IMG/VR virus record: IMGVR_UViG_3300021197_001581
Location: 1 to 33,586 of that record
From: a virus
Strand: one strand, 5' to 3'
Length of the DNA: 33,586 nt
In this document: piece by piece, positions 2,023 through 23,911 of the stretch
Position numbering within the stretch: position 1 is the stretch's first letter
How the letters are laid out: each line of letters opens with the position of its first letter
The notes under the pieces: model-generated
Database searches by the model: none
Told to the model about the DNA's origin: nothing
The model's input: only the letters and a program-made list of their open reading frames with translations
Made by a program: the position numbers and the translations under genes

Positions 2023-2256
2023 ATGTCTGATCAACTAAGCAAACTCAGCGAGATGCACGATCTCGTAATTGATCAAGTGCTGGAAGACTTGCAGAACGGT
2101 GATCGCAAAGCTCGCATAGAAGCGATGGCATTACTGAAGAACAGCAACGTCACTGCTGTTGCAGCTGAGGGCTCAACTCTCAAGAAGCTTGCAGGCAAGT
2201 TGGACTTTTCAGAGATGAGCGACAAGGTTGTGCCGATTACACCGAAAGCTGTTTGA
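2023..2256 (+). CDS. Candidate small terminase subunit (TerS), encoded opposite to TerL
   Basis: A 77-residue, mostly helical protein: residues 1-45 form two amphipathic helices (LSEMHDLVIDQVLEDL, then KARIEAMALLKN) typical of the DNA-binding/oligomerisation half of small terminases, followed by a short tail ending in DKVVPI. Its reading frame looks far more protein-like than any antisense frame. It is convergent with the terminase large subunit and overlaps its 3' end by 20 nt, while all neighbours run leftward. T7-type TerS (gp18) is about 90 residues and lies directly upstream of TerL on the same strand, so this position is unusual. No Shine-Dalgarno is visible. The TerS call is an inference from size, helical pattern and position. 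Confidence 0.5.
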   Translation: MSDQLSKLSEMHDLVIDQVLEDLQNGDRKARIEAMALLKNSNVTAVAAEGSTLKKLAGKLDFSEMSDKVVPITPKAV

Positions 2257-3991
2257 CCCCGCCATAAGCTCCGTGATTGGACAGGTTGGGTCGCCATCCC
2301 AGCGCGAGGGAATCGACGGCACCTTCCTGTTCACTCATCCAAGCTTCCATATCTTCATTACGCATCTGGGCTGTGCGTTCCAGTTGAGTTCGCATCTGAT
2401 CCTGGGCGGCACTCTCGACGTAGTAAGCCAAGGCAATTGCTAAAGCATCAATACGGTCATCGTGCGACAAACAGCCACGCTCGTCTGAGAGCCTTGAGAG
2501 CTGATGGGCTAACGACCTCGAATAACCATGCTCAGGGTCTTCATCAAGCAATCGATAATCCGCTTTTATCACCCGCGCAAGGATCGATAACCTGTGCTGC
2601 TGAATAATTGGGCCTAACGTGTCACATAGGCGGGTTTCTTTGCGGATGCTGTGTCTTACCTCTTCGATTGAGACCGGATGATGTCTCAATATGTGGGGTT
2701 TCAACAGGGCTGTAAACATCCCGTCCCCCATATTTGATTCTGCGATTACATAATTCACGTCCCATTTCTTTGCAGTCTTGGCCAGATGCTCAAGCACCGT
2801 GTCGTCATAGCCAAGAGTGCTGCCACCGCTCTCTAGCACTGTGAAATTTCCGCCATATTCCGCCAATACGCACCAAGCCAGCTCGTCGCGGCCCCTACCC
2901 GCTGGATCGACTGACATAACGACACGGGCCTCCTTTCTTTCCACCCAGCCGTTGATGAATGCAGGCCGATGCCAGAACCTATCTGCGCCCATCCCAACGC
3001 AAACCAGCTCTTGAAGCCGGTATTCGGGCGAGCTCGACCAGACGACAGTCTCAGGAAGAGCAGATCCATCGATGTCGAGGACGCAAATATCACCGAGGCG
3101 TACTGGGAAGCGGTCAAGGGTGGCAAGCCTGCAATTGAGATAGAACTGAAGCTCGAAACTTGCCTTCGTCATCGACGCTTGACGTTGAAGGATGTCTTCG
3201 TGACTGAACCGCTCAGGGTCCGTTGGCTCTCCGACTAACCCTGGATCCGTTTCGACTTCTAGCTCAATACGTGGATCGAGGTTCCCTTCGTAGGTATCAA
3301 GCTCTTCTGGGTATAAAGCAGGCCAATATCTACTTGAATAACCCCTTTCTCGCACCAGTCGTAGGTAAATACTGGTCTCGGTGTGCGGTGTGCCGAGATA
3401 AATGATCTTTCTGGGCAGTAACTGGCCCTCATCTGGCTTGATGATGGATTCCATCTCAGTTACAGCATGAGCAATGCGCTCTTGTTTTAATATAGTGAGG
3501 GTATTTGCAAGTGTTTCGATATCATCTAGTACCGCGCAAGTACATCTCTGGCCTGTGGTTTGAGCCCCTACGCCTAATGCGCGGACCGAGGCCGACTGCT
3601 CAGGAATACATGGCCCAACATCAAAGGCGACATTGCTGGATCTGTTATTCATTCCAGGCAATAAGCACTGCAATATGTCCACTTCAGCCATAGTACGCAA
3701 CATAAATTGCGTGAAATCCGTCGCCTTTAGTGCTGTAGCTGAAACGACAAGGATCTTTTCCTCTGGATCCATGCGCAGCCGCCATAAAGCGTAGTAACTG
3801 GCAAGTAATGACTTGCCCAGGCCCCTGAATGCAACAGTCAGCTGCCGATCAGGGCCATCTTGCATCCATTGGGCAACAGCAACCTGCTGCTTGGTGGGAG
3901 TTGTCGCCAGACCTTGCTCTCTAAGTAGATAGCAACAGAACTGCGGGAACCTCGGCAGCTGTTCTGGCATCTCTTCCCACAACTGCTTCAT
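2237..3991 (-). CDS. terL: Terminase large subunit (DNA-packaging ATPase/nuclease), T7 gp19-like
   Basis: This is the motor that pumps DNA into the prohead through the portal and cuts concatemers. The 584-residue length matches T7 gp19 (586). The ATPase half shows Walker A AFRGLGKS near residue 55, Walker B CAVLDDIE near residue 153, and the coupling motif YLGTPH near residue 198. The nuclease half shows the three acidic sites SVDPAGRGRDE, AESNMGDG and DDRIDAL, the last close to the C-terminus. The ATG overlaps the stop of the preceding 53-aa gene as ATGA. Its 3' end overlaps a convergent small gene that is a TerS candidate. Unlike T7, it is upstream of the portal in the same leftward unit. 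Confidence 0.95.
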   Translation of the reverse strand: MKQLWEEMPEQLPRFPQFCCYLLREQGLATTPTKQQVAVAQWMQDGPDRQLTVAFRGLGKSLLASYYALWRLRMDPEEKILVVSATALKATDFTQFMLRTMAEVDILQCLLPGMNNRSSNVAFDVGPCIPEQSASVRALGVGAQTTGQRCTCAVLDDIETLANTLTILKQERIAHAVTEMESIIKPDEGQLLPRKIIYLGTPHTETSIYLRLVRERGYSSRYWPALYPEELDTYEGNLDPRIELEVETDPGLVGEPTDPERFSHEDILQRQASMTKASFELQFYLNCRLATLDRFPVRLGDICVLDIDGSALPETVVWSSSPEYRLQELVCVGMGADRFWHRPAFINGWVERKEARVVMSVDPAGRGRDELAWCVLAEYGGNFTVLESGGSTLGYDDTVLEHLAKTAKKWDVNYVIAESNMGDGMFTALLKPHILRHHPVSIEEVRHSIRKETRLCDTLGPIIQQHRLSILARVIKADYRLLDEDPEHGYSRSLAHQLSRLSDERGCLSHDDRIDALAIALAYYVESAAQDQMRTQLERTAQMRNEDMEAWMSEQEGAVDSLALGWRPNLSNHGAYGGVKQLSV

Positions 3992-5639: not shown

Positions 5640-5985
5640 TAGTCGTGGGCTCCATGTATTTCAGTGATGGCAAACCCATCACGCTGATCGCATGACGGAC
5701 TGCCTCTAGATGCCTTGGATGTGTAACTCGCCAACGACGCTTCGGAGAACCGTTGCCCCAGGCCCAACCTGCGTACTGAATAAAACCTGCATCAAGCAAC
5801 TTCTTCAAAGCCTTGATCACAGTCGCCTTACCCAATCCACATTGATTGGCTATCCCTTTCACACTCCAAGCTGTTGTTCCACCCTGCGCAGACTTACCCT
5901 TGCCTGATACATCCTTGAACGCGCTCTCCCACAACAGCGCATAAACAGGACCGCATTCACGACCTAAGTCGAATACTTCCACCAT
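5560..5985 (-). CDS. Winged helix-turn-helix DNA-binding protein (regulator or replication-initiator type)
   Basis: Residues 30-65 form a clear helix-turn-helix and wing (WSVKGIANQCGLGKATVIKA, then a short helix and AGFIQYAGW), the pattern of bacterial and phage winged-helix domains that read DNA next to their own promoter. About 141 residues are predicted from ATG 5985; the frame remains open to a TTG at 6018 and a GTG at 6012, and none has a convincing Shine-Dalgarno. It is the first gene of the leftward unit and faces the gene-free control region. A perfect 8-bp palindrome lies 36 nt upstream of the ATG, suggesting autoregulation. It could act as a lysogeny or early repressor, but this is inference. 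Confidence 0.7.
   Translation of the reverse strand: MVEVFDLGRECGPVYALLWESAFKDVSGKGKSAQGGTTAWSVKGIANQCGLGKATVIKALKKLLDAGFIQYAGWAWGNGSPKRRWRVTHPRHLEAVRHAISVMGLPSLKYMEPTTNGWTIEPSTERGCVAEGAERCEGESC
5640..5682 (-). promoter_or_regulatory. CCACGACT start element with hairpin, minus strand, inside the regulator gene
   Basis: On the minus strand a perfect hairpin GTGATGG-GTTTG-CCATCAC (5676-5682 with 5664-5670) is followed by CCCACGACT-A and then ATG 5639. This repeats the hairpin/CCACGACT/ATG order of the rightward early modules on the other strand, but within coding sequence, so chance cannot be excluded. Confidence 0.4.
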
Positions 5986-6020
5986 CGGTGGACAGCTACC
6001 AACCAAGATCACAGACAAGA

Positions 6021-6909: not shown

Positions 6910-7263
6910 ATGGCAATCCATAGAACCGAGTCGTTTCACAACGACATCGACAGCGAAAGCGTCGAACGTTCATTCATGACCAAGGGAACCTCTTGGGCTC
7001 GAATTGATACAGACCAAGACGCTTGGTATTACGGCAACTGGACCAACCCCGAAAGGTTTTACGTCGTCACTTATGCGGAAGGCGATTTGATCGTTCTCAA
7101 ATGCGATACAGCTGAGGAGTTTTGCTCTGAGCTGAATCGCATGGCTGCATGGCATGCCGTCCAAGACAGCTACATGCGCATTGATCCAAGAGAAGAGCAC
7201 GAGCCACTTTGGCTTGAGCTTGGCCTTGGGCATTTGCTGGCAGATCAGCTAGCTGTCGTTTGA
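6910..7263 (+). CDS. Early protein of a tandem-duplicated family, 117 aa (paralog 1)
   Basis: Residues 28-82 align well with the next gene: W-A-x-x-DTDQDA, then GNW-x-x-PER, then EGD, then a KC, and an acidic helix with EF and E-x-R/xRM. I recall related small proteins in cyanophages and other phages, with no assigned function. No membrane segment or catalytic motif is visible; an alpha/beta fold of about 60 residues with variable ends is likely. It is a monocistronic cassette between two start modules, suggesting individually controlled early expression. Confidence 0.7.
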   Translation: MAIHRTESFHNDIDSESVERSFMTKGTSWARIDTDQDAWYYGNWTNPERFYVVTYAEGDLIVLKCDTAEEFCSELNRMAAWHAVQDSYMRIDPREEHEPLWLELGLGHLLADQLAVV

Positions 7264-7272
7264 TCCACTCCT

Positions 7273-7329
7273 GGAGCCCTTCGGGGTTCCCTGAGCGGTT
7301 CTACCGCTTAATCCCACGACTTGGAATCA
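7273..7329 (+). promoter_or_regulatory. Intergenic start module, copy C
   Basis: Hairpin 1 is GGAGCCC-UUCG-GGGUUCC (7273-7290). Hairpin 2 is GCGGT-TCT-ACCGC (7295-7307). TTAATCCCACGACTT (7308-7322) follows, then GGAATCA and ATG 7330. The complete consensus order is present; no Shine-Dalgarno is seen. Confidence 0.75.
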
Positions 7330-7668
7330 ATGAACAAGACAGAACTATTCGATGCCGGAATGAACCGCTACGCGTTTGATTTTGAGCACTGTCGCTGCAA
7401 TGACGGCTGGGCACAGCTCGACACTGACCAAGACGCTGAGTGGTTTGGCAACTGGGCGCATCCTGAACGCTTGCACATCGTGTCGTTTGTAGAGGGTGAC
7501 ATCGCAGTCACCAAATGCGCAGACAGCGATGAGTTTAGGACTGAGATTGAAAGGATTGCGGTTTTTCACATCGACAAGATGAACGGCCGTTTTTCAATTG
7601 ACGCTGGAGGCGATCGCAAGCGCGAGCGCGAATGGAACGGTCACGGCTTGAAGTGTTACCTGCGCTGA
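7330..7668 (+). CDS. Early protein of a tandem-duplicated family, 112 aa (paralog 2)
   Basis: The segment from about residue 25 to 80 (WAQLDTDQDAEWFGNWAHPE, then VEGDIAVTKC, then an acidic helix) is paralogous to the previous gene, showing a local duplication that includes the flanking control module. The C-terminal 30 residues are unrelated and basic. ATG 7330 is chosen because the upstream in-frame TTG belongs to the conserved CCACGACTTGGAATCA element. Function unknown. Two diverged copies kept side by side suggest distinct targets or dosage. Confidence 0.7.
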   Translation: MNKTELFDAGMNRYAFDFEHCRCNDGWAQLDTDQDAEWFGNWAHPERLHIVSFVEGDIAVTKCADSDEFRTEIERIAVFHIDKMNGRFSIDAGGDRKREREWNGHGLKCYLR

Positions 7669-10703: not shown

Positions 10704-11747
10704 ATGGCTGATCGAGTACGGCTACAAGGCGAACACTGGATCGCCGACTACACCCTCGGTGGTAAGCGGAAACAGAACCGCGTCAGTTCAGAAGCAGAAG
10801 GCTGGGAGCTCATTCAGAGAGCTCACAGGCAGGCTGTCGTCGATCACGACCAGCAACAGCGCACAGGCATCAAGAAAGCACCTCCAGCACCCACTGGGGG
10901 TTTTTCTGTTGCTGAGGCATGGGAGCTCTCGTTTCAGCGACGCTTCAAAGGCCAAGCCAGTGTTGAGAACACTCAAAGCCACTTCAAGAAGATCCGCTCA
11001 TACTTCGGCCCCAATACTCAGCTGGCAGCAATCAGCGCCATCTGGCTGGATCAGTTCAGGCAAGAGCTATTGAGAGCGATTAGCGCCAAGTCGGTCAACC
11101 GTGTCGTCTCTGTACTGCGTGCAATGCGCAGCGATGCCATCACCTTTGGTCGTTTGATTGACGTGCCGGCATGGCCCAAGCAACTGGCAGAGACCAAGAT
11201 CCCGCCGCGGTTTCTTAGCGGTGAAGAGGTCGATGCAATGCTCGCTTACTGGGCTGAAAAGGCCGCGGCCAATCCGCGTTGCACCTATGAGCTCATGATT
11301 GATTTCGTGCAGTTCAGGCTGTGCCAGGGCAGCCGCTTTGGCGAAAGCATCAGGGTCACACCTCGCGACGTGAACAGCAGGACATGTGATGTCACGTTCG
11401 TCTACACAAAGAACGGATCACCACGGACTGTGCCGCTGCTGGCTGTTGCGATGGAGATCGTAAAACGCCGCAGCGCAGGCCTTGACGCTGACGATCAGAT
11501 CTTCCCGATTAAATACTCAACGTTTCAACGGCAGTGGGCTGAGTGTCGTGACGCTTTAGGCCTAGGCGGTCGCGTTGTGCCCCATGTTCTGCGGCACACC
11601 ATGGCAACCAGGGCAGTGAGCGCAAACGTGTCAACAGCGCAGCTGATGCACTTCGGGGGATGGCGCAGCCTGTCGGCTTTGGATCACTACAGCCATATCG
11701 ACACGCAAGGTTTGCAGAGGATGAAACAAGCGCTTGAAAACTATTGA
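10704..11747 (+). CDS. int: Tyrosine-family site-specific integrase
   Basis: Catalyses recombination between phage attP and a host att site. The 347-residue protein has an N-terminal arm-binding-like region, a core-binding SAM-like domain (about 65-165) and a catalytic domain with the full active-site set: R211 in QGSRFGES, K236 in TKNGSPRTV, H294-x-x-R297 in HVLRHTMATR, H316 in MHFGGWR and the nucleophile Y329 in DHYSH. All residues are present, so it should be active. It lies just upstream of the RNA polymerase, the arrangement also seen in some marine T7-like cyanophages. No tRNA-like attP core was recognised nearby. Confidence 0.93.
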   Translation: MADRVRLQGEHWIADYTLGGKRKQNRVSSEAEGWELIQRAHRQAVVDHDQQQRTGIKKAPPAPTGGFSVAEAWELSFQRRFKGQASVENTQSHFKKIRSYFGPNTQLAAISAIWLDQFRQELLRAISAKSVNRVVSVLRAMRSDAITFGRLIDVPAWPKQLAETKIPPRFLSGEEVDAMLAYWAEKAAANPRCTYELMIDFVQFRLCQGSRFGESIRVTPRDVNSRTCDVTFVYTKNGSPRTVPLLAVAMEIVKRRSAGLDADDQIFPIKYSTFQRQWAECRDALGLGGRVVPHVLRHTMATRAVSANVSTAQLMHFGGWRSLSALDHYSHIDTQGLQRMKQALENY

Positions 11748-11800: not shown

Positions 11801-12018
11801 TTTGCAGACAAACCAGCAAACCCCTGTCCCTCACTAGCTGGTGTGTCTTGCCTTGTCACAACGCACCGCTCTACGGGGGTGCAAACCATTTGCCGCGCAA
11901 GGTGTTTGGGGCTTGCAAATGCCAAAATGCGAGGGCGTAATAGTCCCAACGTGTTTGCAGACAGTTTGCAAAAAGAACAAGGATTACAACAGCTAGAAGC
12001 AGAGCAACTTTGCAGACA
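11801..12018. repeat. TTTGCAGACA direct repeats and GCAAA-rich region between int and RNA polymerase
   Basis: TTTGCAGACA occurs at 11801-11810, 11954-11963 and 12009-12018. The first and third share 14 bases (AACTTTGCAGACAA). Many further GCAAAC/TTTGC boxes lie between. The last two copies fall within the start of the RNA polymerase gene. Candidate functions are integrase arm sites or operators. The 179-nt gap between int and the chosen RNA polymerase start holds no convincing gene. Confidence 0.45.
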
Positions 12019-14377
12019 ACGCAAAGCTGACGAACGCGCAAGAGCAGCACGAGATAGCAACCAAAGGAAGCTCAAAGAGATTGGGTGTGAATCAGCCCTG
12101 GATTACGGGCAAAAGCTGTTCAGCATCAGCGTGGATTTTGTGGCTGATTACATCAGCGCCACTCTTGAAGATTTTTTGCTGCATCCAGAGAAGGCCAGGC
12201 CTCACGCCAGCGCTCTACCTCTGCTCGATGATTTCTCCGATGTTCATCACATTGCTGCTGTTGCACTGACCGCAGCGTTGAACCAGCTAAGCCGTCGGCA
12301 GACGTATGGAACGTTCCTGCAACACATCGGCTTAGCCATTGAGAAGGAAACCAGGCTGATCAAACTCGGCAAGAAGAGCCCGTTAGAGATGCGCAAGCTG
12401 ATGCGTGATGGCGTCAGCCGTCGCAAGATCAGCAGCAAGAAGGTGCTCCGGGCATTGAACTGCCCGGTCATCGAATGGTCTGACCTGACCAGGCTTCAAG
12501 TTGGCGCGTTCCTGGCTGAAGCAATCTTTGCCACGGAGCTACTGACGCCGATCATGCTGCGAAGGGGCAAGCGCACAATGCGCTTAGTCGTGCCCACTGC
12601 ACAGGCTGAAGGATTTATCCGCAGCTGCAAGGCAAAGGCTTACAAACCCAATCACCTGTCGATGCTGGTGCCACCGAGGGATTGGGTGGGGCTACATGGC
12701 GGTGGAGCCCTTAACAATGATGAACCGCTGGTCAAACCTGTCCTCTACGACGCTGCTGAACCGTGGGCTCTTGATCACTACAAGACGGCAGACCTGACCA
12801 GAACGACTACGGGCGTCAACCACCTCCAGTCTCATGGCTACAGGGTGTCGGCTGAAATCGTTGCGATCCAACGACCAACATGGGAGGGAGGTATTGAAGG
12901 CCTTTGGCCTTGTGCCAGGAACCCCAAAGAAATACCGAGCCGGTTGGGTGACAGCCCCAGCTCTGAGGATCTGAAGGTACGCAACCAAGCCGCAGCTGCT
13001 GCTTATCGCGATTGCGAAGGTAACCGCCACAGGCGCATTCGCATAGAACGCTCGCTTCAAAACTCCGAAGACGTCATCGATCGCGAGGTGTTTCAGGCCT
13101 GGTATCTGGACCATCGAGGCCGCTGTTACACCTCGAACTCGATTGGTTCGACCATGGGGCCGGATCATGAGAAGGCCACCCTGTCGTTCTCTAAACAGCT
13201 GCCTGTCAACGACGAGGCAATGGCCTGGCTACTGAAAGCCGCAGCAGGCCACCAGGGCATGAGCCGTGACACATGGGAAGCACGACTGAAATGGGGCCAA
13301 GACAACGTTGACCTGATGGTTGCTGCTGCTGAGGATCCACTTGGGAAGCTTGAGCTTTGGCGTGGAGCTAAAGATCCATGGCAGTTCTTGCAAATGTGCA
13401 TTGGCATCAGAGACGCCAAGGCCACAGGAATGAGCGGAACAATGATCCGCCTCGACCAAACGACATCAGGGCCTGGCATCTTGGCGGCACTCACAAGGAA
13501 CAAAGATGTTGGTCGTTTATGTAATTTATTCGGCGACAGTCCGCAGGATTTGTATTCAGTAATTGCAGAAGCCTGCAACAAACGGCTTAGAGAAGACCTT
13601 GAGCTTGGGGATCAAAAGAAAAAGGCCTTAGCTGAGCTCTGGTTAAATTTTGGGGTTGATCGCTCACTCGTCAAGCCTGGCGTTCTTCGTGCCCCATACG
13701 GCGGCAGCTACTTCTCATTAGCGGACCAGCTGGTTGATGCCCTTGAAGAAAGACTTGGCTATGTCCCGCTAGAGCAATACATCTTTAGGGTCAGCATCCC
13801 AAGCAAGTACATGGCTTCAATCATCTGGGCTGAGATGAAGGCAGTCATTGGCCCCGTGATGGAGGTCAAAGCGTGGCTAAGAGCCTGCTGCAAGAAGTTA
13901 TTGAACAAGGGTGTCGTTATGGAATGGACTTCACCCAGTGGATGGCCGATGCGTGCTGCTGATAGGCAGCCAAAAAGGCGCGACATTCGCACTCATCTGT
14001 TCGGGAAAAAATGCTGCATCACCATTAAAGATCAACCGACCGATGCCCCACTGAGCTCGACGCAGGCCAACAAATCAATCAGTGCCAATACGGTCCACTC
14101 ATTTGATTCAGCGATGGTTCACAAGATCATCTACGAGGCCGCAAGAGCAGGGGTATCGATAGTTCCGACCCATGATGCTTTTGCTACTCATCCGGCCACT
14201 GCAAGCAAGATGCACGAGATGCTGCATTGGGAGTTTGGCAACATGTTTAGGAAGCCCCTGCTTCAGCAAATGAAAGCTGAGATCGAAGACAGGACAGGGG
14301 TTTTGCTGCCAGAACCACCTAATCATGGGACGCTAGACCCCATGGCAATTGGCTCGAATCTTTACTTGTTTTCATAG
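11927..14377 (+). CDS. T7-like single-subunit DNA-directed RNA polymerase
   Basis: Transcribes phage genes from phage-specific promoters. From ATG 11927 it has 816 residues (T7: 883). Catalytic residues are all present: the fingers motif with D510 in RLDQTTSG, K583 and Y591 spaced by eight as in T7 K631/Y639 (SLVKPGVLRAPYGGS), and D750 in the palm motif THDAF; LDHRGRCYT corresponds to the T7 DWRGRVYA motif and NTVHSFDSAMV to the HSxDGSH region. The frame is open upstream to 11744 with only a TTG start; that part is Cys-rich and unlike family N-termini, so ATG 11927 is preferred although no Shine-Dalgarno is seen. It follows int by 179 nt. Confidence 0.95.
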   Translation: MRGRNSPNVFADSLQKEQGLQQLEAEQLCRQRKADERARAARDSNQRKLKEIGCESALDYGQKLFSISVDFVADYISATLEDFLLHPEKARPHASALPLLDDFSDVHHIAAVALTAALNQLSRRQTYGTFLQHIGLAIEKETRLIKLGKKSPLEMRKLMRDGVSRRKISSKKVLRALNCPVIEWSDLTRLQVGAFLAEAIFATELLTPIMLRRGKRTMRLVVPTAQAEGFIRSCKAKAYKPNHLSMLVPPRDWVGLHGGGALNNDEPLVKPVLYDAAEPWALDHYKTADLTRTTTGVNHLQSHGYRVSAEIVAIQRPTWEGGIEGLWPCARNPKEIPSRLGDSPSSEDLKVRNQAAAAAYRDCEGNRHRRIRIERSLQNSEDVIDREVFQAWYLDHRGRCYTSNSIGSTMGPDHEKATLSFSKQLPVNDEAMAWLLKAAAGHQGMSRDTWEARLKWGQDNVDLMVAAAEDPLGKLELWRGAKDPWQFLQMCIGIRDAKATGMSGTMIRLDQTTSGPGILAALTRNKDVGRLCNLFGDSPQDLYSVIAEACNKRLREDLELGDQKKKALAELWLNFGVDRSLVKPGVLRAPYGGSYFSLADQLVDALEERLGYVPLEQYIFRVSIPSKYMASIIWAEMKAVIGPVMEVKAWLRACCKKLLNKGVVMEWTSPSGWPMRAADRQPKRRDIRTHLFGKKCCITIKDQPTDAPLSSTQANKSISANTVHSFDSAMVHKIIYEAARAGVSIVPTHDAFATHPATASKMHEMLHWEFGNMFRKPLLQQMKAEIEDRTGVLLPEPPNHGTLDPMAIGSNLYLFS

Positions 14378-14452: not shown

Positions 14453-15052
14453 ATGGCACGCGAACTGAAAAGAACTCCAGCGGTTGAAGTCCGTTGGTGC
14501 AAGATGCTGGGCGCCGCTCGTCCTAACCGTTTTGATGCAAGCAAGCCGCATCAATGGGGCGTCGATATTGTTCTTGATTCACAAGAGAAAGAGCATCTTG
14601 AATATATCGAAGCAGTAGAGGCAGAGTTCGCCCTACAGCACGGAGAACAGGTCAGGAAATCCAACAACTGGAATCCTGTTAGGCCTGACAAAACGCAGCT
14701 TGCTGAGCGTGGCCAACCGCAACGTTTCTACGTTGCCAAGTTCACCCTCAACCAGATGCGTCGCAGGGATGGCACTACGTCAGAAGGCCCAACCATCTTT
14801 GATAAGGATGGCCGCGCTTGGGATCACTCCAAGCTGATTGGCAACGGTTCCAAAATGGTGATTGGCTATGAAATTTATGCATGGCCAGACAAAGGTACTG
14901 GCGCTGGCTTAAGCCTTAACTGCTTGGCTGGGCAGGTAACTGAATGGCTTGAAGCACCAGCACTCGCACGAACTAGCGCTGCTGATTTTGGATTTAACCA
15001 AGCCGCTGGCCTTGAAACCGCTGCTGGGGGAAATGATGGTTTCCCGTTCTAA
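14453..15052 (+). CDS. Single-stranded DNA-binding protein, T7 gp2.5-like
   Basis: Coats single-stranded DNA and coordinates replication proteins through its C-terminal tail. The 199-residue protein has the gp2.5 layout: an N-terminal strand (VRWCKMLGAARPN), a central OB-fold with YVAKFTLNQ and GPTIFDKDGRAWD near residues 100-130, MVIGYEIYAW, then a glycine-rich acidic tail ending GGNDGFPF. A terminal aromatic residue after an acidic stretch is the known contact element of gp2.5 for polymerase and helicase. It sits between RNA polymerase and the nuclease gene, as gene 2.5 does in T7. It is unclear what its tail would contact here, since no phage polymerase is visible. Confidence 0.82.
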   Translation: MARELKRTPAVEVRWCKMLGAARPNRFDASKPHQWGVDIVLDSQEKEHLEYIEAVEAEFALQHGEQVRKSNNWNPVRPDKTQLAERGQPQRFYVAKFTLNQMRRRDGTTSEGPTIFDKDGRAWDHSKLIGNGSKMVIGYEIYAWPDKGTGAGLSLNCLAGQVTEWLEAPALARTSAADFGFNQAAGLETAAGGNDGFPF

Positions 15053-15230
15053 TGGCAAGCCCTACTACTCGCAAGCTGACGAAGATTCAGCGGTTCAGAT
15101 CCAGCTGCTCACAGAGATCAAGCAACTGCTTCTTCGTGTTGTCAAAACACAAGAGCCTCCGACTCTTCCAGATATTCCGCCGCCAGCTCCGCGCCGCGCT
15201 CCTCGTAAATTCAGGAATGACGAGTCGTGA
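15033..15230 (+). CDS. Small helical protein, 65 aa, overlapping SSB and RusA
   Basis: Reads MMVSRSNGKPYYSQADEDSA, then a leucine-rich helix (IQLLTEIKQLLLRVV), then a proline-rich basic tail (LPDIPPPAPRRAPRKF). This frame is more protein-like than the overlapping frame that extends the RusA gene upstream. It starts within the last codons of SSB after GGGGGAA and overlaps the RusA start by 14 nt, a coupled arrangement. The function is unknown; an accessory to SSB or the resolvase is conceivable. Confidence 0.55.
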   Translation: MMVSRSNGKPYYSQADEDSAVQIQLLTEIKQLLLRVVKTQEPPTLPDIPPPAPRRAPRKFRNDES

Positions 15231-15582
15231 GTTTGTGCTCCCGCTTCGGCCCATCAGTAAAGCCAGGCCTCGGTCCTTTCAAGGCCAGGCCCGGCCTTAC
15301 ATGCCAGCTGCATACAAGCAATGGATCAAAGACGCTCGGATGCACCTATCCGAGTGGTGGGTTGATGAGCCACTGGAGCACGTTGAAATGATGGACGTTC
15401 ATTTCTATGGCCCCGCAAGGGGCGACCTAGACAATCGCGTCGGGTCGCTCTGCGATGCCATGAATGGACTGGTCATTAAGGACGACAACGTGAATGTCCT
15501 GCCTCGGATGAGGCTGTCATTTACCAAGGCCAAGACCACTGAGGCCTGCATCCACATCCGTCTGACATGGGGGGAAGAATGA
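15217..15582 (+). CDS. rusA: RusA-family Holliday junction resolvase
   Basis: Cleaves four-way DNA junctions, here probably resolving branched replication concatemers before packaging. From ATG 15217 (after a TCAGGA box) it has 121 residues, the size of E. coli RusA (120). The metal-binding acidic residues are in place: D70 and D72 in GDLDNRVG, the NGLVIKDD motif with D89/D90, and an N-terminal PISKARPRSF basic patch. The frame is open further upstream to 15052, but that part is Ser/Arg-rich and non-homologous in appearance. T7 uses the unrelated endonuclease I (gp3) at this point of the genome, so this is a functional replacement. Confidence 0.9.
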   Translation: MTSREFVLPLRPISKARPRSFQGQARPYMPAAYKQWIKDARMHLSEWWVDEPLEHVEMMDVHFYGPARGDLDNRVGSLCDAMNGLVIKDDNVNVLPRMRLSFTKAKTTEACIHIRLTWGEE

Positions 15583-15788
15583 TCAACTGCCCTAAATGCG
15601 GATCCGATCAATCCAGCATCAAAGAAACGTATGAGCAGAACAATTTTCTAACAAGACGACGTATCTGCTCCAATTGTGGCAATGGATTTATCACTCGGGA
15701 GTTCAGCGCTGATGCGATCAAACTCTTAGTCGAAAAGGGCAACGAGTCCCTTCAAACAAATCTGGTCCGCTTATTCGGGGGCCGATGA
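15579..15788 (+). CDS. NrdR-like zinc-ribbon protein lacking the ATP-cone, 69 aa
   Basis: Residues 4-35 form a zinc ribbon, CPKCGS ... RRRICSNCGNGFITRE, the signature of the N-terminal domain of the ribonucleotide-reductase repressor NrdR (CPxC ... RRRR-x-C-x-x-C-G-x-R-F-T-T-x-E). NrdR continues with an ATP-cone of about 100 residues; here only a short helical tail remains, so nucleotide sensing is lost. It may bind DNA or RNA on its own, or block host NrdR. It is coupled on both sides by ATGA overlaps, between RusA and the primase-helicase, with a strong GGGGGGAAGA ribosome-binding site. Confidence 0.72.
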   Translation: MINCPKCGSDQSSIKETYEQNNFLTRRRICSNCGNGFITREFSADAIKLLVEKGNESLQTNLVRLFGGR

Positions 15789-17383
15789 GTGACAGCACTT
15801 CCTCTCGTTTTATTCGTCACAGTGCCTGTCCTAGCTGTAACAGCAGCGATGCGTTGGCGATCTATGACGATCACGAACATTGCTTTTCCTGTAATTACGA
15901 CAAGCAGTACAAAGAAAAAAAGGAAGCACCTGCCGAGGCGAGACCTGTTTCGCCAATGACAGAGATCGTGTTCGACACCACCAAGCCATATAGGGGCCTG
16001 GAAAAGAAAACGTTGGACTCCTACGGCGTTTCTTTTAAGGATGACTGCATTGTCTTCAACTACAGAGACCGCACTGGTCAGTTCTGTGCTCAAAAGATCA
16101 GGGACAAAGAACCTGGCACTGATGGCAAACGCAGGACTGCTTGGCGTGGTGATGCAAAAAAGGTTGCAGGTTTCGGCCAGCACCTAGCCAACCCCGTCAA
16201 ACACGATGTCCTTTGCGTTTGCGAGGGCGAACTCGACGCACCATCTATTTATCAGTCAACCAATGGCAAGGTTGCTGCTATCTCTGTTCCTAACGGGGCA
16301 GCAGGCGCAGCCAAATTTGTAAGGGAGCACTTAGATGAGCTTCTGAAATTCAAAACCATCACTGTTTGCACTGATAACGATGAACCTGGCCATGAGGCAG
16401 CGACAGCAATCATGGCGTTGTTTGATCCTGGCAAGGTCAGACGTGCTCTCTTCCCAAAGAAGGATGCAAACGACACTTTGCAGGAGCTTGGCGCACAATC
16501 TGTAAAGGATGCTGTTGATGCAGCTAAGGAGATTCGCCCGGATGGCATCAGACCAGCCAGTGATTACAAGGGGATTGCGTTAAAACCACGCGATTGCAGG
16601 GCGACGGATTGCGCTTTCAGTTTCTGGAATAGCAAGACACCGTTTTACGACAACCAAATGATCTGTCTCATCGCCGGATCAGGCGTGGGGAAGACAACAT
16701 TCGCCAGAGCCCTCGCCATGCACGACATGGAACGCGGGATCAAATGCGGGTGGATCGGCTTAGAGGAAACAGCTGAGGAGGCGATCTTTCGTTTTGTCGG
16801 CATGGCCGCTGGTATTCAGCTTCATGCAAGACAGGACTACGAAGACTTAAGCGAACAGCAACTAAAAGACATTGAGATGGCTGACCGGTTTGTTACTGGC
16901 AGCGGCTCACTGGAGTTGTTTGATCACTTTGGATCGCTTGATGAAGAATCAATCCTTAACCGGATGAACTACATGGTCAGGTCGCTTGGCTGCAAGCACA
17001 TCTATCTCGACCACCTGACGATCATCGGCTCCGGCTTAGCGCAGGACACCCGGCACCTGGACAGCTTGATCACCAAGATCAGGTCGTTTATTGCTGCAAC
17101 TAAATGTACGGTGTTTGCAATCTCTCATCTCTCCCGATCACAAGGCCAGAATTTTGAGAATGGCGACATCCCTGAGTTGCAAAACATCAGAGGCAGTCAT
17201 TCAATTGTGCAATTAGCAGACACGATCTGGGCTCTAGGTCGAAAGCGTGGAACGCAGTTGACTCACTCTCACTGCTTGAAAAACAGGATGCTTGGTCGTC
17301 TTGGCTACGCGGGATCTTTTGAATTTGATGAAGCCACCCAACGCCTTGATCACAAATGGGTAGACCAGGCCAGCAGCTTCTGA
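15785..17383 (+). CDS. DNA primase-helicase, T7 gp4-like
   Basis: Synthesises primers and unwinds DNA ahead of the fork. The 532-residue protein (T7 gp4A: 566) has all modules: a zinc-binding domain with CPSC ... CFSC at about residues 15-36, a TOPRIM primase domain with CEGELDA and TDNDEPGHEAA (about 140-210), a linker, and a RecA-type helicase domain with Walker A GSGVGKTT near residue 298, Walker B HIYLDHLTI near 410 and the DNA-binding loop IRGSHSIVQLADT near 470. In T7 relatives the DNA polymerase gene follows closely; here two small genes and the exonuclease follow instead. Confidence 0.95.
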   Translation: MSDSTSSRFIRHSACPSCNSSDALAIYDDHEHCFSCNYDKQYKEKKEAPAEARPVSPMTEIVFDTTKPYRGLEKKTLDSYGVSFKDDCIVFNYRDRTGQFCAQKIRDKEPGTDGKRRTAWRGDAKKVAGFGQHLANPVKHDVLCVCEGELDAPSIYQSTNGKVAAISVPNGAAGAAKFVREHLDELLKFKTITVCTDNDEPGHEAATAIMALFDPGKVRRALFPKKDANDTLQELGAQSVKDAVDAAKEIRPDGIRPASDYKGIALKPRDCRATDCAFSFWNSKTPFYDNQMICLIAGSGVGKTTFARALAMHDMERGIKCGWIGLEETAEEAIFRFVGMAAGIQLHARQDYEDLSEQQLKDIEMADRFVTGSGSLELFDHFGSLDEESILNRMNYMVRSLGCKHIYLDHLTIIGSGLAQDTRHLDSLITKIRSFIAATKCTVFAISHLSRSQGQNFENGDIPELQNIRGSHSIVQLADTIWALGRKRGTQLTHSHCLKNRMLGRLGYAGSFEFDEATQRLDHKWVDQASSF

Positions 17384-17637
17384 ATTGGACTGATCTGACG
17401 ATTGGCCAACTCATCTATTTCTTTACCGGCGCAGGCTGGAAGAAAGCAACAGTCCTTTCAAGGACAGATCATTCAGCCAAAATTCTTTTTACTCACGGAA
17501 ACAATGAGCGACACATCTCTATCACTGACCGACGAAACATCAGGACAAAAGATCACGAGGCTGGAGGAGCTATGCCGCAGGACCGAGCTGGAGATCATGA
17601 CCGGAGACATCAAGAGTCTTTTGATTTGGGCCTATGA
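17356..17637 (+). CDS. Small beta-rich protein, 93 aa, overlapping two neighbours
   Basis: Residues 10-65 look real: LTIGQLIYFFTGAGWKKATV, then SAKILFTHG and ISITDRRNIR, a pattern of alternating strands I associate with small SH3-like cyanophage proteins whose function is unknown. The last 25 residues are less natural and coincide with the start of the next frame. It begins inside the last codons of the primase-helicase. Either both frames are used, or a small sequence change merges them. Confidence 0.5.
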   Translation: MGRPGQQLLNWTDLTIGQLIYFFTGAGWKKATVLSRTDHSAKILFTHGNNERHISITDRRNIRTKDHEAGGAMPQDRAGDHDRRHQESFDLGL

Positions 17638-17740
17638 GAGCTACAACGATTCCTTTAAGAGGAGTGATGTCAAAGAATCGATGTACTGGGACGGTTATAT
17701 CAGGGCTCTTCACCACGTTCTGGAGGGGATTGGTCAGTAA
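17504..17740 (+). CDS. Small acidic protein, 78 aa, unknown
   Basis: Starts MSDTSLSLTDETSGQKI, continues with a helix (LEELCRRTELEIMTGDIKSL) and a second part with aromatic residues (LIWAYESYNDSF, YWDGYIRALHHVLEG). It has no known motif or membrane segment. It overlaps the previous frame by 134 nt, which is long for a phage and suggests that one start or stop is wrong. Its own stop overlaps the next ATG as TAATG, supporting its 3' half as genuine coding sequence. Confidence 0.6.
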   Translation: MSDTSLSLTDETSGQKITRLEELCRRTELEIMTGDIKSLLIWAYESYNDSFKRSDVKESMYWDGYIRALHHVLEGIGQ

Positions 17741-18186
17741 TGCCAGTATCAACAGCATCAGTCGTACTCTGCCCTAAGTGCGGCACTCAGACTGCAACCT
17801 ACTGCTATGGCACCAAAAAACCTGACGTAAAAGTCAGATATAGGAGATGCCCTAAATGTGAAAACCGACTCAAGACTATTCAACGCTTTGATGATCCTAA
17901 AGCAGGTGAAAAAATTGTTCCAACCATGACACTACAAGAGCAAGGAAAGTTTCTTGCTGAATGCCGGGCCAAGGCTGCCAGGCAAAAAGGCAGGAGAAAA
18001 GCCATGAAACAAATAAAACTAACTGAACGAGACGTGGCTGAGATCAAGTACCTCATTCACAACAACATCCAAACGCAGGCTTACACCGCCATGCAGTACG
18101 GAGTGGAGAAAACTTCCATTCATCGCATTGCCACTGGTGCTTGCTTCGCAGACATCCCAACCCCTAAGTCACTAGCAGACCTATGA
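17740..18186 (+). CDS. Zinc-ribbon plus HTH-like DNA-binding protein, 148 aa
   Basis: Residues 11-44 form a zinc ribbon, CPKCGTQTATYCYG ... RYRRCPKCENRLKTIQRF, similar in style to the NrdR-like protein upstream. After a basic linker (KAARQKGRRKAMK), residues 90-140 resemble a homeodomain-like HTH of resolvase or HNH-associated type (LTERDVAEIKYLIHNN, then AMQYGVEKTSIHRIATG). Such zinc/HTH combinations occur in phage regulators and homing-endonuclease DNA-binding ends, but no nuclease motif is present. It is coupled to both neighbours by TAATG and ATGA overlaps. It occupies the place of the DNA polymerase gene in T7-like genomes. Confidence 0.62.
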   Translation: MPVSTASVVLCPKCGTQTATYCYGTKKPDVKVRYRRCPKCENRLKTIQRFDDPKAGEKIVPTMTLQEQGKFLAECRAKAARQKGRRKAMKQIKLTERDVAEIKYLIHNNIQTQAYTAMQYGVEKTSIHRIATGACFADIPTPKSLADL

Positions 18187-18953
18187 ACCCCAGGATCTAC
18201 ATCGACATTGAGCCCACGCAGTTTGGAGTTAGCCGAAGCCACGAGTACGAACTTCAAGTCGGCCCCTATCAATGGTCGTACTTCACCCGAATTGATCGCT
18301 GCATTACTGACATTGGCAACAAGCTAGAGCGACTTGAAGCCTTTGCTCCTCAACACGAACAGGTGATTTGCCTTGGGCATCACAACAATTTTCGCTATGG
18401 GGTACTGCCCAGTTACAAAAGCAACAGGCTTGGTATACGCAAGGCCGCTGGCTATAAGGCTTTGAGAGATTGGATACAAGACAACTATGAAACACTTGTC
18501 TTCCCAAATGTTGAGGCCGACGACGTAATTGGATTGATGGCAGGCAGAGACGACATCATCTTTTCCACCGATAAAGATCTCAAGACGATCAAAGGCGTTC
18601 ACATGGATAACGAGGGCAACCTCACTGAAGTCACAGAGCTTGAAGCAAACCGCAGTTACTTCAGACAAGTCCTTACCGGCGATGCTGCTGATGGCTACAT
18701 GGGGTGCCCTGGCATTGGCAACAAATCAAAGATCTTTGAGCAGGAAGACTGGATCACCTGCTGCACTGAAGCTCACTTCTGGGATCTGGTGAAAAGCAAG
18801 TACGAGGAGAAGTCACACAAGCTGCGGTTGATGTATGACATCTACGACCCCATGGCCTACTGCTTACAGGTCGCCCGTGTTGCACGGATTCTTAGGCCAG
18901 GGGAATACGACCACCAATGGGATACTCCTGTCCTATGGGATGGGCCGAGTTAG
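18183..18953 (+). CDS. 5'-3' exonuclease / flap endonuclease, T7 gp6-like
   Basis: Removes RNA primers and degrades DNA from 5' ends, feeding nucleotides and recombination. The 256 residues carry the FEN-family landmarks in order: an N-terminal IYIDIEPT acidic site, VLPSYKSNR with the conserved basic residues near 80, NVEADDVIGL near 110, FSTDKDLKTI near 125 and the helix-hairpin-like LTGDAADGYMGCPGIG near 165-180. T7 gp6 has 300 residues; this is somewhat shorter at the C-terminus. It overlaps the upstream gene as ATGA and is followed after 28 nt by the lysin gene. Confidence 0.9.
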   Translation: MNPRIYIDIEPTQFGVSRSHEYELQVGPYQWSYFTRIDRCITDIGNKLERLEAFAPQHEQVICLGHHNNFRYGVLPSYKSNRLGIRKAAGYKALRDWIQDNYETLVFPNVEADDVIGLMAGRDDIIFSTDKDLKTIKGVHMDNEGNLTEVTELEANRSYFRQVLTGDAADGYMGCPGIGNKSKIFEQEDWITCCTEAHFWDLVKSKYEEKSHKLRLMYDIYDPMAYCLQVARVARILRPGEYDHQWDTPVLWDGPS

Positions 18954-20050: not shown

Positions 20051-20365
20051 CTATAAGAACTTCCGGTGAGGAGTCTTAGGTTCAATCCGATAGGCTTCCA
20101 GCCCATTGGCATACGGACCAGCAAAGTTAATGTGCCAACCGGGTAGAGGTACAGGCGGAGTTAGTTCTTCACCTTCCTCGTCATAAGTACCTGGCTCGAA
20201 GATAGTGCCGACTACATCCATAGCCCAACCGAGGTCAGCTGTTTTGTAGTAGGCAGGAATCACTTCCTCTTCAACTGTTTCTTCAGGGACGTAATACCCT
20301 TCTGGTTGTAGTACTGCAATCGCAGTAGCTTCGTCAGGGAATTTGAAATAGGTTGTAGTTGTCAT
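20051..20365 (-). CDS. Small acidic protein after the tail-protein genes, 104 aa
   Basis: Begins MTTTTYFKFPDEATAIAVL, contains an acidic loop (EETVEEEVIP), tryptophan-containing strands (LGWAMDVVGTIFEPG, PGWHINFAGPY) and ends in a basic tail. I associate such proteins with tail-fibre chaperones or accessory proteins near fibre genes of cyanophages, but have no firm family. The start overlaps the stop of the third tail paralog as ATGA, so it belongs to the tail operon. Confidence 0.6.
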   Translation of the reverse strand: MTTTTYFKFPDEATAIAVLQPEGYYVPEETVEEEVIPAYYKTADLGWAMDVVGTIFEPGTYDEEGEELTPPVPLPGWHINFAGPYANGLEAYRIEPKTPHRKFL

Positions 20366-21621
20366 GAGGTTAGTGTTTGAAGTTCTGCGTCAGTTAGACG
20401 CTCGTTGTAGTAGGAGAGGCGGGCGATGTGACCGTTTAATTGCGTTTGATAGTTGTTGTTTACAGTTCCCCCAGTGTTTTTATTATTTGCATTTGTTATC
20501 TCAATTCCAGTGAACGTACCTGGCTGATGGTAAGTTCCACTGACAGCGGATTGCTCATTATTCACAAGTGCAAAGTCCAAGGAAGTTCCGGATTGGGTAA
20601 CCGCAAACTTATTTATAACGTTGACTGAGCTTGAATCAAGAATTGTCCTGCCACCACCTGGATTGCCAGGTGCGCTTAATTGTGAACGAAATCGAGTGGG
20701 TCCGGTACCGACGTAAGCTTGCCATCTGGAACCATCAGAGCTTATAAAAGTGAAAAACCCTGAAGAATTATCATTTGAGTTTAACAGGCTTACATTTTCA
20801 AACACCGTCCCTTCACTCTGGTTATACCAACTGCTGAAGTTATCACCAGTTATCTGAGCAATGTCAGCTGAGCGGGTAACAGTGCTGCCGGTTGTGGGGA
20901 TGTAGGAGGTTGGGAAGGAGCCTTGTTCTCCTTGTGCCCCCCAAAGGAACAGCCCATCACCTGCCGCTGCCGTGTAGGTGGGCAACCTATTCGATCCAGG
21001 GTCAGAAGGGGCTCCAAGAACTAAGACGTTTTTGTTAGTGTTACTAACTGATACTTGAGTAATTGAGCACCTGTACCAGCCGTCTTTCAATGGCTCGATT
21101 GTTGCTGAACTTGTGCTGAAATAAGTGATCAAACCATTCACTAAATCAAAGGTCGCAACTCTCGAATTGAATCCACTAGAAGAAGCTAACTGCAAAAAAC
21201 CATAAACATCAGCTTTTGCGTATATGGAGAACGTGTAATCTACCGCATCTGCGCCTAAAAAAGTACTTGTTATCCATGGGCGCACTGTTCCTACATTGGG
21301 CACAAATCTATCCGCCGTCGCAGTTCCGTCGGGCGCAATCGTGACATTAGGTGTCACCGAACATTCGGTTGCACCCCATGTGTCAAGCTCTTCGCTGTCG
21401 GGTTCAAGGTTCGTCCTACTCTCTTCAACCAATAACCCTAAGCATTCACCAGTCACTGGGTCATGGTCAAACCGTGGTTCATGATCAGCAGCACTGACGA
21501 CCAAGCCAGCACTATTGATATAAGTAGCACCAGAAGAACGACTGAACGTAACCCTAGGATCCAGCTGTTGTGAGTTCTGAAAGTCCAGCGTTATTGCTGG
21601 CATGATTATTGGATAAGTCAT
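20362..21621 (-). CDS. Tail/adhesion protein, paralog 3 of 3 (419 aa)
   Basis: The N-terminal 75 residues carry the shared module of this tandem family: LTLDFQNSQQLDPRVTFSRS, SGATYINSAGL and a DHEPRF...LLVEESRTNL segment. A jelly-roll-like middle (about 90-230, with TPNVTIAPDGTATAD and GLFLWGAQGEQGSFPTSYIP) is typical of carbohydrate-binding modules on phage tails. The C-terminal half starts with ITGDNFSSWYNQSEGT, a concanavalin-like strand pattern, and ends GHIARLSYYNERLTDAELQTLTS. It probably forms part of a receptor-binding tail appendage. ATG overlaps the upstream stop. Confidence 0.75.
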   Translation of the reverse strand: MTYPIIMPAITLDFQNSQQLDPRVTFSRSSGATYINSAGLVVSAADHEPRFDHDPVTGECLGLLVEESRTNLEPDSEELDTWGATECSVTPNVTIAPDGTATADRFVPNVGTVRPWITSTFLGADAVDYTFSIYAKADVYGFLQLASSSGFNSRVATFDLVNGLITYFSTSSATIEPLKDGWYRCSITQVSVSNTNKNVLVLGAPSDPGSNRLPTYTAAAGDGLFLWGAQGEQGSFPTSYIPTTGSTVTRSADIAQITGDNFSSWYNQSEGTVFENVSLLNSNDNSSGFFTFISSDGSRWQAYVGTGPTRFRSQLSAPGNPGGGRTILDSSSVNVINKFAVTQSGTSLDFALVNNEQSAVSGTYHQPGTFTGIEITNANNKNTGGTVNNNYQTQLNGHIARLSYYNERLTDAELQTLTS

Positions 21622-22814
21622 AGGGTTATGGTTTGAAGTTCAGCGTTGGATAGGCGGCGGGAGTAGTAGGAGAGGCGGGAGATAGGAGCGTTTGCCGGGA
21701 ATATGTTCAACCGATTCAATCCTGTTGACGGTGGATTGGTCGATGACTCAACAGTGCCACCATCAAAAACCATTGCCAAATCACTTGTGGCATAAGCCAA
21801 TGCTGTACTGACAACAGGTGCAGTAGCTATAGAAAAACTCGTCGTCGGTGAACCTCTTACTCTCCACATTTGTTGGTCTGCACCAGTGCTGCTACCAAAT
21901 AAAATGCCCGGACGAGCTCCTGCGCGGGTAGCGTTCCTATCGGCAAAAGAAAGGATTCGCGTGTCGCTGCCCGTCGCGTATGTTTGTCCTGCAAACTTTG
22001 CGTAGATTGTTCCTTCACTTTGGTTATACCAACTACTGAAGTTATCCCCGCCGACCTGAGCAGTATCAGCAGAGCGGGTTACGGTGCTTCCTGCGGTGGG
22101 GATGCAACTGGTTGGGAAGAGACCATCCTCTGCTTGAGGGGCGCAAACCAATACATCAACATCCCCCTCAGTGTTGGGGTGAAAATAATTACCACCAACA
22201 GCAAAAAGACCGCTATCTGCTATAACAGTGTTAATTAAAAAAATGCGATACCAACCATTTGAATATTTTTCAAATCCTATGTCATCTGTAGTTACACTGT
22301 CATTTTGGAAGAATTTGAATTGCTCGGTTGCAAACTCAAAGTACCGACTATTTGACGCAGTGCTATTCCCATAATCCAAGCCAACTTTTGTCCCCCCATT
22401 GTTTTTGACAAAAACGGAATAAGTCCTGTCTAAACCTGTCGGAAAGCGAGTTGCTCGATTGATGACTAATGCTTTACCAATTTGATTACTATTCACCGAT
22501 TGTGGTCTTACTCTCCAAGACAACATACCGTCGATTGGACTGTCTGTACTACTGGAGAAGGAGTTTAGATTTAGTGTTTCGTTAGGTAAGGCCGATAGAT
22601 CAGTAGAGTTAGAAACAATGTTCGTCCTACTCTCCTCAATCAACAACCCCCCTTCTTCAAACCTTGCCTCATGATCACTAGCTGTTGTAATCAACCCTGT
22701 ATCAGGATTGAGGTAAGTAGCACTAGACGAACGACTAAAGGTAATACGTGGGTCCAGCTGACGACTGTTGGCAAAGTCCAGGGTTAGTTCTGGACGTATG
22801 GTTGGATAAGTCAT
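21618..22814 (-). CDS. Tail/adhesion protein, paralog 2 of 3 (398 aa)
   Basis: It has the same three-part layout as its neighbours: an N-terminal LTLDFANSRQLDPRITFSRS module ending at EESRTN, a divergent jelly-roll-like middle (about residues 80-230) closed by GLFPTSCIPTAGSTVTRSAD, then VGGDNFSSWYNQSEGT and a concanavalin-like C-terminal domain ending ISRLSYYSRRLSNAELQTITL. The ends are strongly conserved among the three paralogs while the middle and distal domain vary, as expected for receptor-binding proteins under selection. Starts and stops are joined by ATGA/TGATG-type overlaps. Confidence 0.75.
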   Translation of the reverse strand: MTYPTIRPELTLDFANSRQLDPRITFSRSSSATYLNPDTGLITTASDHEARFEEGGLLIEESRTNIVSNSTDLSALPNETLNLNSFSSSTDSPIDGMLSWRVRPQSVNSNQIGKALVINRATRFPTGLDRTYSVFVKNNGGTKVGLDYGNSTASNSRYFEFATEQFKFFQNDSVTTDDIGFEKYSNGWYRIFLINTVIADSGLFAVGGNYFHPNTEGDVDVLVCAPQAEDGLFPTSCIPTAGSTVTRSADTAQVGGDNFSSWYNQSEGTIYAKFAGQTYATGSDTRILSFADRNATRAGARPGILFGSSTGADQQMWRVRGSPTTSFSIATAPVVSTALAYATSDLAMVFDGGTVESSTNPPSTGLNRLNIFPANAPISRLSYYSRRLSNAELQTITL

Positions 22815-23911
22815 GATGTGATTGCCTCCAGTTGTTCGTTAGTTAGTCGTTCGGGGTAGTAGGAGAGGCGGGCAACACAACCGTTAAGTCGATTAGTCCC
22901 TCCATAAGCTATATTTCGCCCAATTGTCATTTGGGCAACACTGTTTATTGTGTTGTTACTGCCGGTTTTATTAACACCCTTAACAGCAAATGCGTAATCG
23001 CCTGGTTTAATTGCATAGGCAAATTTTATAGGGTTGCCGTCTACTACATTAGTATGCTGAATGTTTGTGTTGGCATTAGTACCATTGACTTGGAGATTTA
23101 GATTGATAGTACCGTTTACCATTACTCGATTGTTATTAGTACCAAGATACACTGCATCACCGGGCCTCAATGATGGTCCCACATCAGCAAGCATAGTGCC
23201 TTCACTGTTGTTATACCAAGAGCTGAAGTTATCACCAGTTATAGTGCAGACATCAGCTGCTCTAGTTACTGTTGAGCCGGACGTTGGTATAAACGATGTT
23301 TCAAAACTTCCCTTTTCAGCTTGTTCTCCCCATACGTCTATATCGCAGCCACTCGAATCACTAGCTCTAATTCCAAATGTTTTACCAGTGATGGCGGGTA
23401 CATCTGTTGCATCACTGATTACTCGAATCCAAGAACCATCTGCCGGCAATGTAGTTGTTATGGTAGACGATGTACTAGACAAAGTACAGTCAACATTTTG
23501 AGCTACACCAGTGCGAGATCGAGCATATACAGAGCATATATGAGTCCCTGTTGCTGCTGGATTAAAGAGTCTTTTTCCTCCGCCAGTGGCCACCGACGAT
23601 TGGATTCTGATGCAACCTGTGGACCCGTCGGGAGCCGTAGATGTTGAGCTGACGGGAGTAGCACCGCCGGAAAGTAAGTCCCAATTTGAGGCATTTGGTG
23701 TGGACGTATTTAGTATTAAGTTAGTCCTAGCCTCTTCAATCAACAAACCCTCTTCTTCAAACCTAGCTTGATGTTCATCGGCATACTTAATAACACCACC
23801 CTCAACATAAGTAGCTGAGGATGATCTACTAAACGAGATCCTTGGATCAAGCTGTTTACTCTTTTGAAAGTCCAGCGTCAGGGATGGCCGGACTGTTGGA
23901 TACATACTCAT
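22811..23911 (-). CDS. Tail/adhesion protein, paralog 1 of 3 (366 aa)
   Basis: The shortest of the three paralogs. The N-terminal module (LTLDFQKSKQLDPRISFSRS, then EEARTNLILN), a middle with SSTSTAPDGSTGCIRI and SFETSFIPTSGSTVTRAADV, and the C-terminal domain from ITGDNFSSWYNNSEGT to CVARLSYYPERLTNEQLEAITS are all present. The start overlaps the stop of the large fibre gene as TGATG, which links the four proteins as one coupled tail operon. A role as alternate or additional receptor-binding subunit is inferred. Confidence 0.75.
   Translation of the reverse strand: MSMYPTVRPSLTLDFQKSKQLDPRISFSRSSSATYVEGGVIKYADEHQARFEEEGLLIEEARTNLILNTSTPNASNWDLLSGGATPVSSTSTAPDGSTGCIRIQSSVATGGGKRLFNPAATGTHICSVYARSRTGVAQNVDCTLSSTSSTITTTLPADGSWIRVISDATDVPAITGKTFGIRASDSSGCDIDVWGEQAEKGSFETSFIPTSGSTVTRAADVCTITGDNFSSWYNNSEGTMLADVGPSLRPGDAVYLGTNNNRVMVNGTINLNLQVNGTNANTNIQHTNVVDGNPIKFAYAIKPGDYAFAVKGVNKTGSNNTINSVAQMTIGRNIAYGGTNRLNGCVARLSYYPERLTNEQLEAITS

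Follow-up and report, generated by a model that had tools for sequence, protein, structure and literature searches.

The window analysed here, the 33,586-bp virus record IMGVR_UViG_3300021197_001581 of IMG/VR, carries a phage replication region in which no DNA polymerase gene lies between a T7 gp4-type primase-helicase and a 5'-3' exonuclease. The record is a fragment that ends inside a portal gene on the left and an internal virion protein gene on the right (Table 1). The early genes are arranged on the plus strand in the order clamp-like gene, MarR-like genes, integrase, T7-type RNA polymerase (RNAP), gp2.5-like single-stranded DNA-binding protein (SSB), RusA resolvase, zinc-ribbon protein, primase-helicase, two small genes, zinc-ribbon/helix-turn-helix (HTH) gene, exonuclease and endolysin. 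The late genes (terminase, portal, internal virion proteins and tail fibres) occupy the minus strand in a block that wraps around the contig ends. A T7-type RNAP and packaging genes are thus both present. The best explanation of the window is a T7-like (Autographiviridae) phage of the S-SRP02/uvMED-G9 lineage, temperate in appearance and ~43 kb in full, of which the record covers about four fifths. This lineage probably infects cyanobacteria; its sole isolate is the Synechococcus phage S-SRP02, and no tRNA gene was found in the window, so no host could be deduced from an attachment (att) site.

The primase-helicase is a full-length gp4-type protein that aligns with T7 gp4 over residues 4-521 (PDB 6n7i; phmmer E 1.7e-51) and matches phrog_239 (E 1e-119); the conserved columns include the cysteines of the zinc site and the toprim and Walker A residues. 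The frames of the two small genes downstream were examined with a codon-position test against locus L009: 11 of the 15 differences before position 17600 fall at third positions of the small protein 1 frame, and 9 of the 11 after it at third positions of the small protein 2 frame. By this test, the open reading frame (ORF) start at 17402 is spurious. Small protein 1 is related to the product of S-SRP02 21301-21549 (29% over 55 aa, E 1e-6) and the end of small protein 2 matches S-SRP02 21468-21647. The zinc-ribbon/HTH gene is variable (93% in L009-L011, 26% in L005) and was not found in L013 or in the relative G001; its product shows weak likeness to HNH-endonuclease families. The PHROG and PDB matches and the codon-position test bear out the preliminary description, which had placed two small proteins and a zinc-ribbon/HTH protein between genes 4 and 6.

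That description had also reported no polymerase motif anywhere in the 33.6 kb, and we reached the same result: the PF00476 (Pol A), PF00136 (Pol B) and PF07733 (DnaE) profiles returned no candidate in the window. PF00476 was applied to the whole genome set and the Pol B and DnaE profiles to part of it. As a positive control, PF00476 was run on 14 other T7-like phages and matched all 14, P-SSP7, Syn5, P-RSP2 and several pelagiphages among them; it also matched two distant contigs, G004 and G005. Apart from two genes for virion proteins, both on the late strand, the window has no unassigned ORF of polymerase size. These two large proteins, many small ones without a family match and a profile set that did not extend to phi29-type Pol B and primase-polymerase models would leave room for a phage polymerase too divergent for recognition, but every early-strand gene of polymerase size is assigned, the two large orphans correspond by synteny to virion proteins of AP013547, and the sister S-SRP02 and the MPP-C genomes show the same absence, making such an enzyme highly unlikely.

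The complete relative G001 (43,066 bp) has the same gene order as the window, with TerL (terminase large subunit) 85% and primase-helicase 76% identical; its last 100 bases recur near its start, as a 127-bp overlap or end repeat, and the Pol A, Pol B and DnaE profiles found no polymerase in it. The block between the portal and virion protein genes, which the window lacks, contains only portal, scaffold, capsid, tail tube and virion protein genes in G001, AP013546 and AP013547. Judged by this synteny, the missing ~9-10 kb would be a head/tail block without a polymerase. A polymerase gene outside the window, which the preliminary description had named as the observation that would overturn its view, was found in none of these three genomes; that one lies in the missing part, as the fragmentary record might suggest, has next to no probability, since the contig ends inside the two genes that flank this structural block and G001 has none, and we rejected it on synteny and the complete relatives. 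The positive control, the synteny and the polymerase-less G001 together indicate that the absence is real and not a fragment artefact.

The absence extends well beyond the window. PF00476 found no Pol A in AP013546, AP013547, AP013548, AP013549, S-SRP02, G001, G006, G009, G011, G016, G019 and G020, nor in P-SCSP1u and P-SCSP2. Ten polymerase-less genomes, comprising the window, the uvMED G9 phages and the S-SRP02 relatives, form one clade in the TerL tree (support 100/99), and the MPP-C phages P-SCSP1 and P-SCSP2 fall outside it. A single clade of all polymerase-less phages was not rejected on TerL (approximately unbiased test, p-AU 0.127), and a single origin would also agree with the primase-helicase tree (75/87), whereas two origins are required by a larger tree built more quickly. 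The absence is lineage-wide, and a second lineage besides the published MPP-C is without the gene.

The MPP-C cyanopodoviruses were described as polymerase-less in 2022 (Cai et al. 2022; PMC9860041), with three hypotheses for their replication: host DNA polymerase I (Pol I), which was named first, host DNA polymerase III (Pol III) or a divergent enzyme of their own (PMC9860041). Polymerase-less T7-like cyanophages and the host Pol III idea are therefore already known; the present phage adds two clues to mechanism, a virus-made sliding clamp and a helicase without the polymerase-docking tail. The earlier characterization of the arrangement as not typical for this group calls for revision, as absence of the polymerase is the rule in the phage's own clade and has had a precedent among T7-like cyanophages since 2022.

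The S-SRP02-like/uvMED G9 phages (S-SRP02; MedDCM-OCT-S37-C6, S31-C1 and S38-C3) share with the window the TerL clade, the lack of a DNA polymerase and the gene order RNAP-SSB-RusA-zinc ribbon-..-exonuclease. S-SRP02 also has the clamp. Unlike the window, S37-C6 and S31-C1 have no clamp, and S-SRP02 and S38-C3 have no detectable T7-type primase-helicase. The MPP-C phages P-SCSP1 and P-SCSP2 are likewise T7-like and without a DNA polymerase, keep RNAP, SSB, primase-helicase and exonuclease and have a non-acidic helicase tail, but differ in TerL placement, in that no clamp was found in them and in their SSB tails, which end EF or DF. Their genomes measure 37.3-37.9 kb, compared with the 33.6 kb fragment of the window and the 43.1 kb of G001.

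A 'DNA polymerase' of S-SRP02 was used in a concatenated tree in the paper on that phage (PMC8790148). The only gene of its record (L003) annotated as DNA polymerase I, at 22389-23129, encodes a 246-aa product that matches 5'-3' exonuclease domains only, and the 'DNA polymerase I' of AP013546 is the same kind of protein. The exonuclease was thus apparently taken for a DNA polymerase. The S-SRP02 subgroup also seems to lack the T7-type primase-helicase, whose place holds a conserved protein of 150-220 aa without a family match (L003:20614-21252, L004:6492-6947, L031:19116-19679). This protein is perhaps a factor that recruits host DnaB; the structure model of the S-SRP02 protein (predicted local distance difference test, pLDDT, 42) was too poor to use.

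In T7, the acidic C-terminal tail of gp4 binds the gp5 polymerase (PMC12593628). We compared the net acidity of this tail, taken as the sequence beyond the last conserved block of the primase-helicase, and obtained values of 0-2 in 9/9 polymerase-less and 3-10 in 17/17 polymerase-bearing phages (Mann-Whitney p 3.7e-5). In a second IMG/VR set, loci were labelled by means of a Pol A profile made for this analysis and counted as polymerase-less only if they had 3.4 kb or more of downstream sequence. Here the acidity was at most 2 in 8/8 polymerase-less versus 14/74 polymerase-bearing loci (Fisher p 9e-6), the polymerase-less loci belonging to the same lineages as in the first set. The loss of the tail is consistent with release from a polymerase partner, without amounting to proof.

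Bacterial SSBs end in -PF and T7 gp2.5 in -DF. The SSB of the window ends NDGFPF, like bacterial SSB tails, SSBs of its clade tend towards -PF and most relatives end IPF, as opposed to the DF end of T7 and most polymerase-bearing relatives. As -PF ends occur in 6/12 polymerase-less and also in 4/17 polymerase-bearing phages, we set the tail aside as proof of host mimicry; in the clade of the window it is only suggestive of it. Compared with the T7 replisome (gp4, gp5, gp2.5 and thioredoxin), the window retains a gp4-type primase-helicase, a gp2.5-type SSB and a gp6-type exonuclease, but lacks the gp5 family A polymerase and the acidic gp4 tail, and its SSB ends PF, not DF.

The AlphaFold2 (AF2) model of the clamp-like protein (pLDDT 70.6; predicted template modelling score, pTM, 0.74) was compared with the PDB using Foldseek, and the best 50 chains listed were all bacterial DnaN beta clamps (best E 1e-6). 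VIA-align superposed the model on DnaN with a Z of 10.4 and 4.2 Å over 170 residues, many PCNAs scoring near Z 9. The predicted structure is thus truly beta-clamp-like. The segments TDGHR (69-73) and C-terminal MPV (LLMPV..R) align to TDGHRL and VVMPMRL of E. coli DnaN and are invariant in ten phage clamps. Polymerase and clamp-loader peptides dock on beta clamps in a pocket whose walls are formed by these segments. The phage protein therefore shares with bacterial DnaN the fold and the TDGHR and C-terminal MP(V/M) pocket segments, although it is otherwise very divergent: DnaN has three domains and forms a dimeric ring, whereas the 244-aa phage clamp has two domains and can be aligned to two of those of DnaN, as well as to clamps of PCNA size.

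The clamp occurs in 5/27 T7-like records searched, that is, in 5/12 polymerase-less and in no polymerase-bearing ones. It is 61-67% identical to those of G006 and G011, whose TerL and RNAP are only 38-39% and 25% identical, respectively; the gene is mobile and has moved horizontally between polymerase-less lineages. The sole match in a cellular genome, on a 6.6 kb contig binned as Rhodobacteraceae, presumably comes from a mis-binned phage contig.

Because the phage polymerase is absent, a host polymerase must be used, and dependence of the phage on one is near certain. The analysis shows this absence, its lineage-wide pattern, the fold and pocket motifs of the clamp and the loss of the helicase docking tail, whereas the identity of the host polymerase and of the partners of the clamp is inferred. 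We favour, with some reserve, the interpretation that the lineage lost its family A polymerase and that a host polymerase, most likely Pol III, copies the genome with the phage helicase-primase and clamp; in view of the pocket of the clamp and the missing docking tail, Pol III is the best guess for this member. In such a scheme, the phage would keep its own RNAP, SSB, resolvase, ring primase-helicase and flap exonuclease, and would leave leading- and lagging-strand synthesis to the host polymerase. The phage helicase-primase would unwind and prime, the host Pol III core would extend, and the two-domain clamp with its beta pocket would hold host proteins bearing a clamp-binding motif on phage DNA. 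The complete form of this arrangement, a chimeric replisome in which the tail-less T7-type primase-helicase works with host Pol III captured by a pocket-mimicking phage clamp, is put forward only tentatively. We found no publication reporting that phages of this group interact with host Pol III.

Several observations weigh against this interpretation. The sequence likeness of the clamp to DnaN is weak (profile E 0.14), and a Pfam search with the clamp gave no match. The clamp gene was not found in G001, AP013546 or AP013547, the closest complete polymerase-less relatives, which rules it out as a general substitute for the polymerase. Clamp and Pol A genes occur in the same contig of G018 (L166), a phage that is not T7-like, so restriction of the clamp to polymerase-less phages holds only within the T7-like phages tested. 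The tail trait changes about 12 times on the tree, and the comparison of acidities comes down to about two independent contrasts, with the expected direction seen 1.7 times on average. Finally, T7-type helicases normally pair with family A polymerases. The hybrid replisome of host Pol III with phage primase-helicase, SSB and flap nuclease suggested in the preliminary description stands in part: the phage polymerase is truly lacking and the beta-like clamp with its pocket motifs favours Pol III, but the clamp is not a general replacement.

The clamp might instead serve outside replication, in recombination, nuclease recruitment or late transcription, or by competing with the host clamp. Its patchy distribution and horizontal transfer, its absence from the closest polymerase-less relatives and its presence in a Pol A phage contig would fit such a role, which we nevertheless regard as rather unlikely given that, within T7-like phages, the clamp is seen in polymerase-less ones only. 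The usual pairing of T7-type helicases makes host Pol I, a family A enzyme and the cellular relative of T7 gp5, the natural rival to Pol III as partner of the gp4-type helicase. Pol I is poorly processive, the gp4 tail that docks a family A polymerase is lost and the beta-pocket clamp suits Pol III at least as well; its use is unlikely, even though the evolutionary partner of T7 gp4 and gp2.5 was a family A enzyme, the phage brings its own 5'-3' exonuclease and Pol I was the first-named hypothesis for MPP-C (PMC9860041).

Elsewhere in the window, two adjacent small proteins (6910-7263 and 7321-7668) both match a single site in L031, and their matches in AP013547 lie at adjacent sites; they resemble tandem paralogues and had no match in a Pfam search. 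Three consecutive minus-strand proteins at 20362-23911 share the near-identical start motif TLDFxxSxQLDPRxxFSRSS and are apparently duplicated tail proteins. A winged-helix protein at 5560-6018, upstream of the terminase gene and kept in AP013546 and G001, shows weak likeness to phage replication initiation proteins and is a candidate for a small terminase or initiator.

Table 1. Annotated features of the 33,586-bp window
Feature	Position	Strand	Evidence
Portal, N-terminal part, cut by left contig end	2..532	-	phrog_449 E 3e-50
Terminase large subunit, marks late strand	2237..3991	-	phrog_38 E 8e-80
Two-domain beta-clamp-like protein, 244 aa	7741..8475	+	AF2 model, Foldseek, VIA-align, phage-clamp alignment
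Tyrosine integrase	10704..11747	+	PF00589 E 9e-16
Single-subunit T7-type RNA polymerase	11924..14377	+	phrog_414 E 8e-130; 51% to AP013546
gp2.5-like SSB, C-terminus ..NDGFPF	14453..15052	+	phrog_112 E 2e-6; tail table
RusA-type Holliday junction resolvase, true start probably downstream of 15052	15052..15582	+	PF05866 E 1.8e-10
NrdR-like zinc-ribbon small protein	15567..15788	+	PF22811 E 9e-8
T7 gp4-type primase-helicase, 532 aa, short non-acidic C-terminus ..DHKWVDQASSF	15785..17383	+	PDB T7 gp4, phrog_239, tail comparison
Small protein 1, 93 aa from first ATG (true start uncertain), overlaps helicase end	17356..17637	+	S-SRP02 likeness, codon-position test
Small protein 2, about 47 aa, ..YWDGY..	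17597..17740	+	End shared with longer ORF 17402-17740
Zinc-ribbon/HTH protein, accessory	17740..18186	+	Weak PHROG matches to HNH/HTH families; presence/absence across loci
5'-3' exonuclease (T7 gp6 / Pol I N-domain type)	18183..18953	+	phrog_107 E 1.8e-31, PF02739 E 1e-7
Two large internal-virion-type proteins, second cut by right contig end	26821..33584	-	27-30% to AP013547 8815-16709

DNA polymerase genes are a widely used marker for counting cyanopodoviruses, and a polymerase-less clade therefore escapes such counts. Our analysis shows a second lineage without a polymerase gene besides MPP-C, and it shows the gene annotated as DNA polymerase in S-SRP02 to encode an exonuclease. The lost docking tail and the host-type clamp pocket make the question of how these phages replicate, whether through Pol I or Pol III or through a hidden enzyme, concretely testable.

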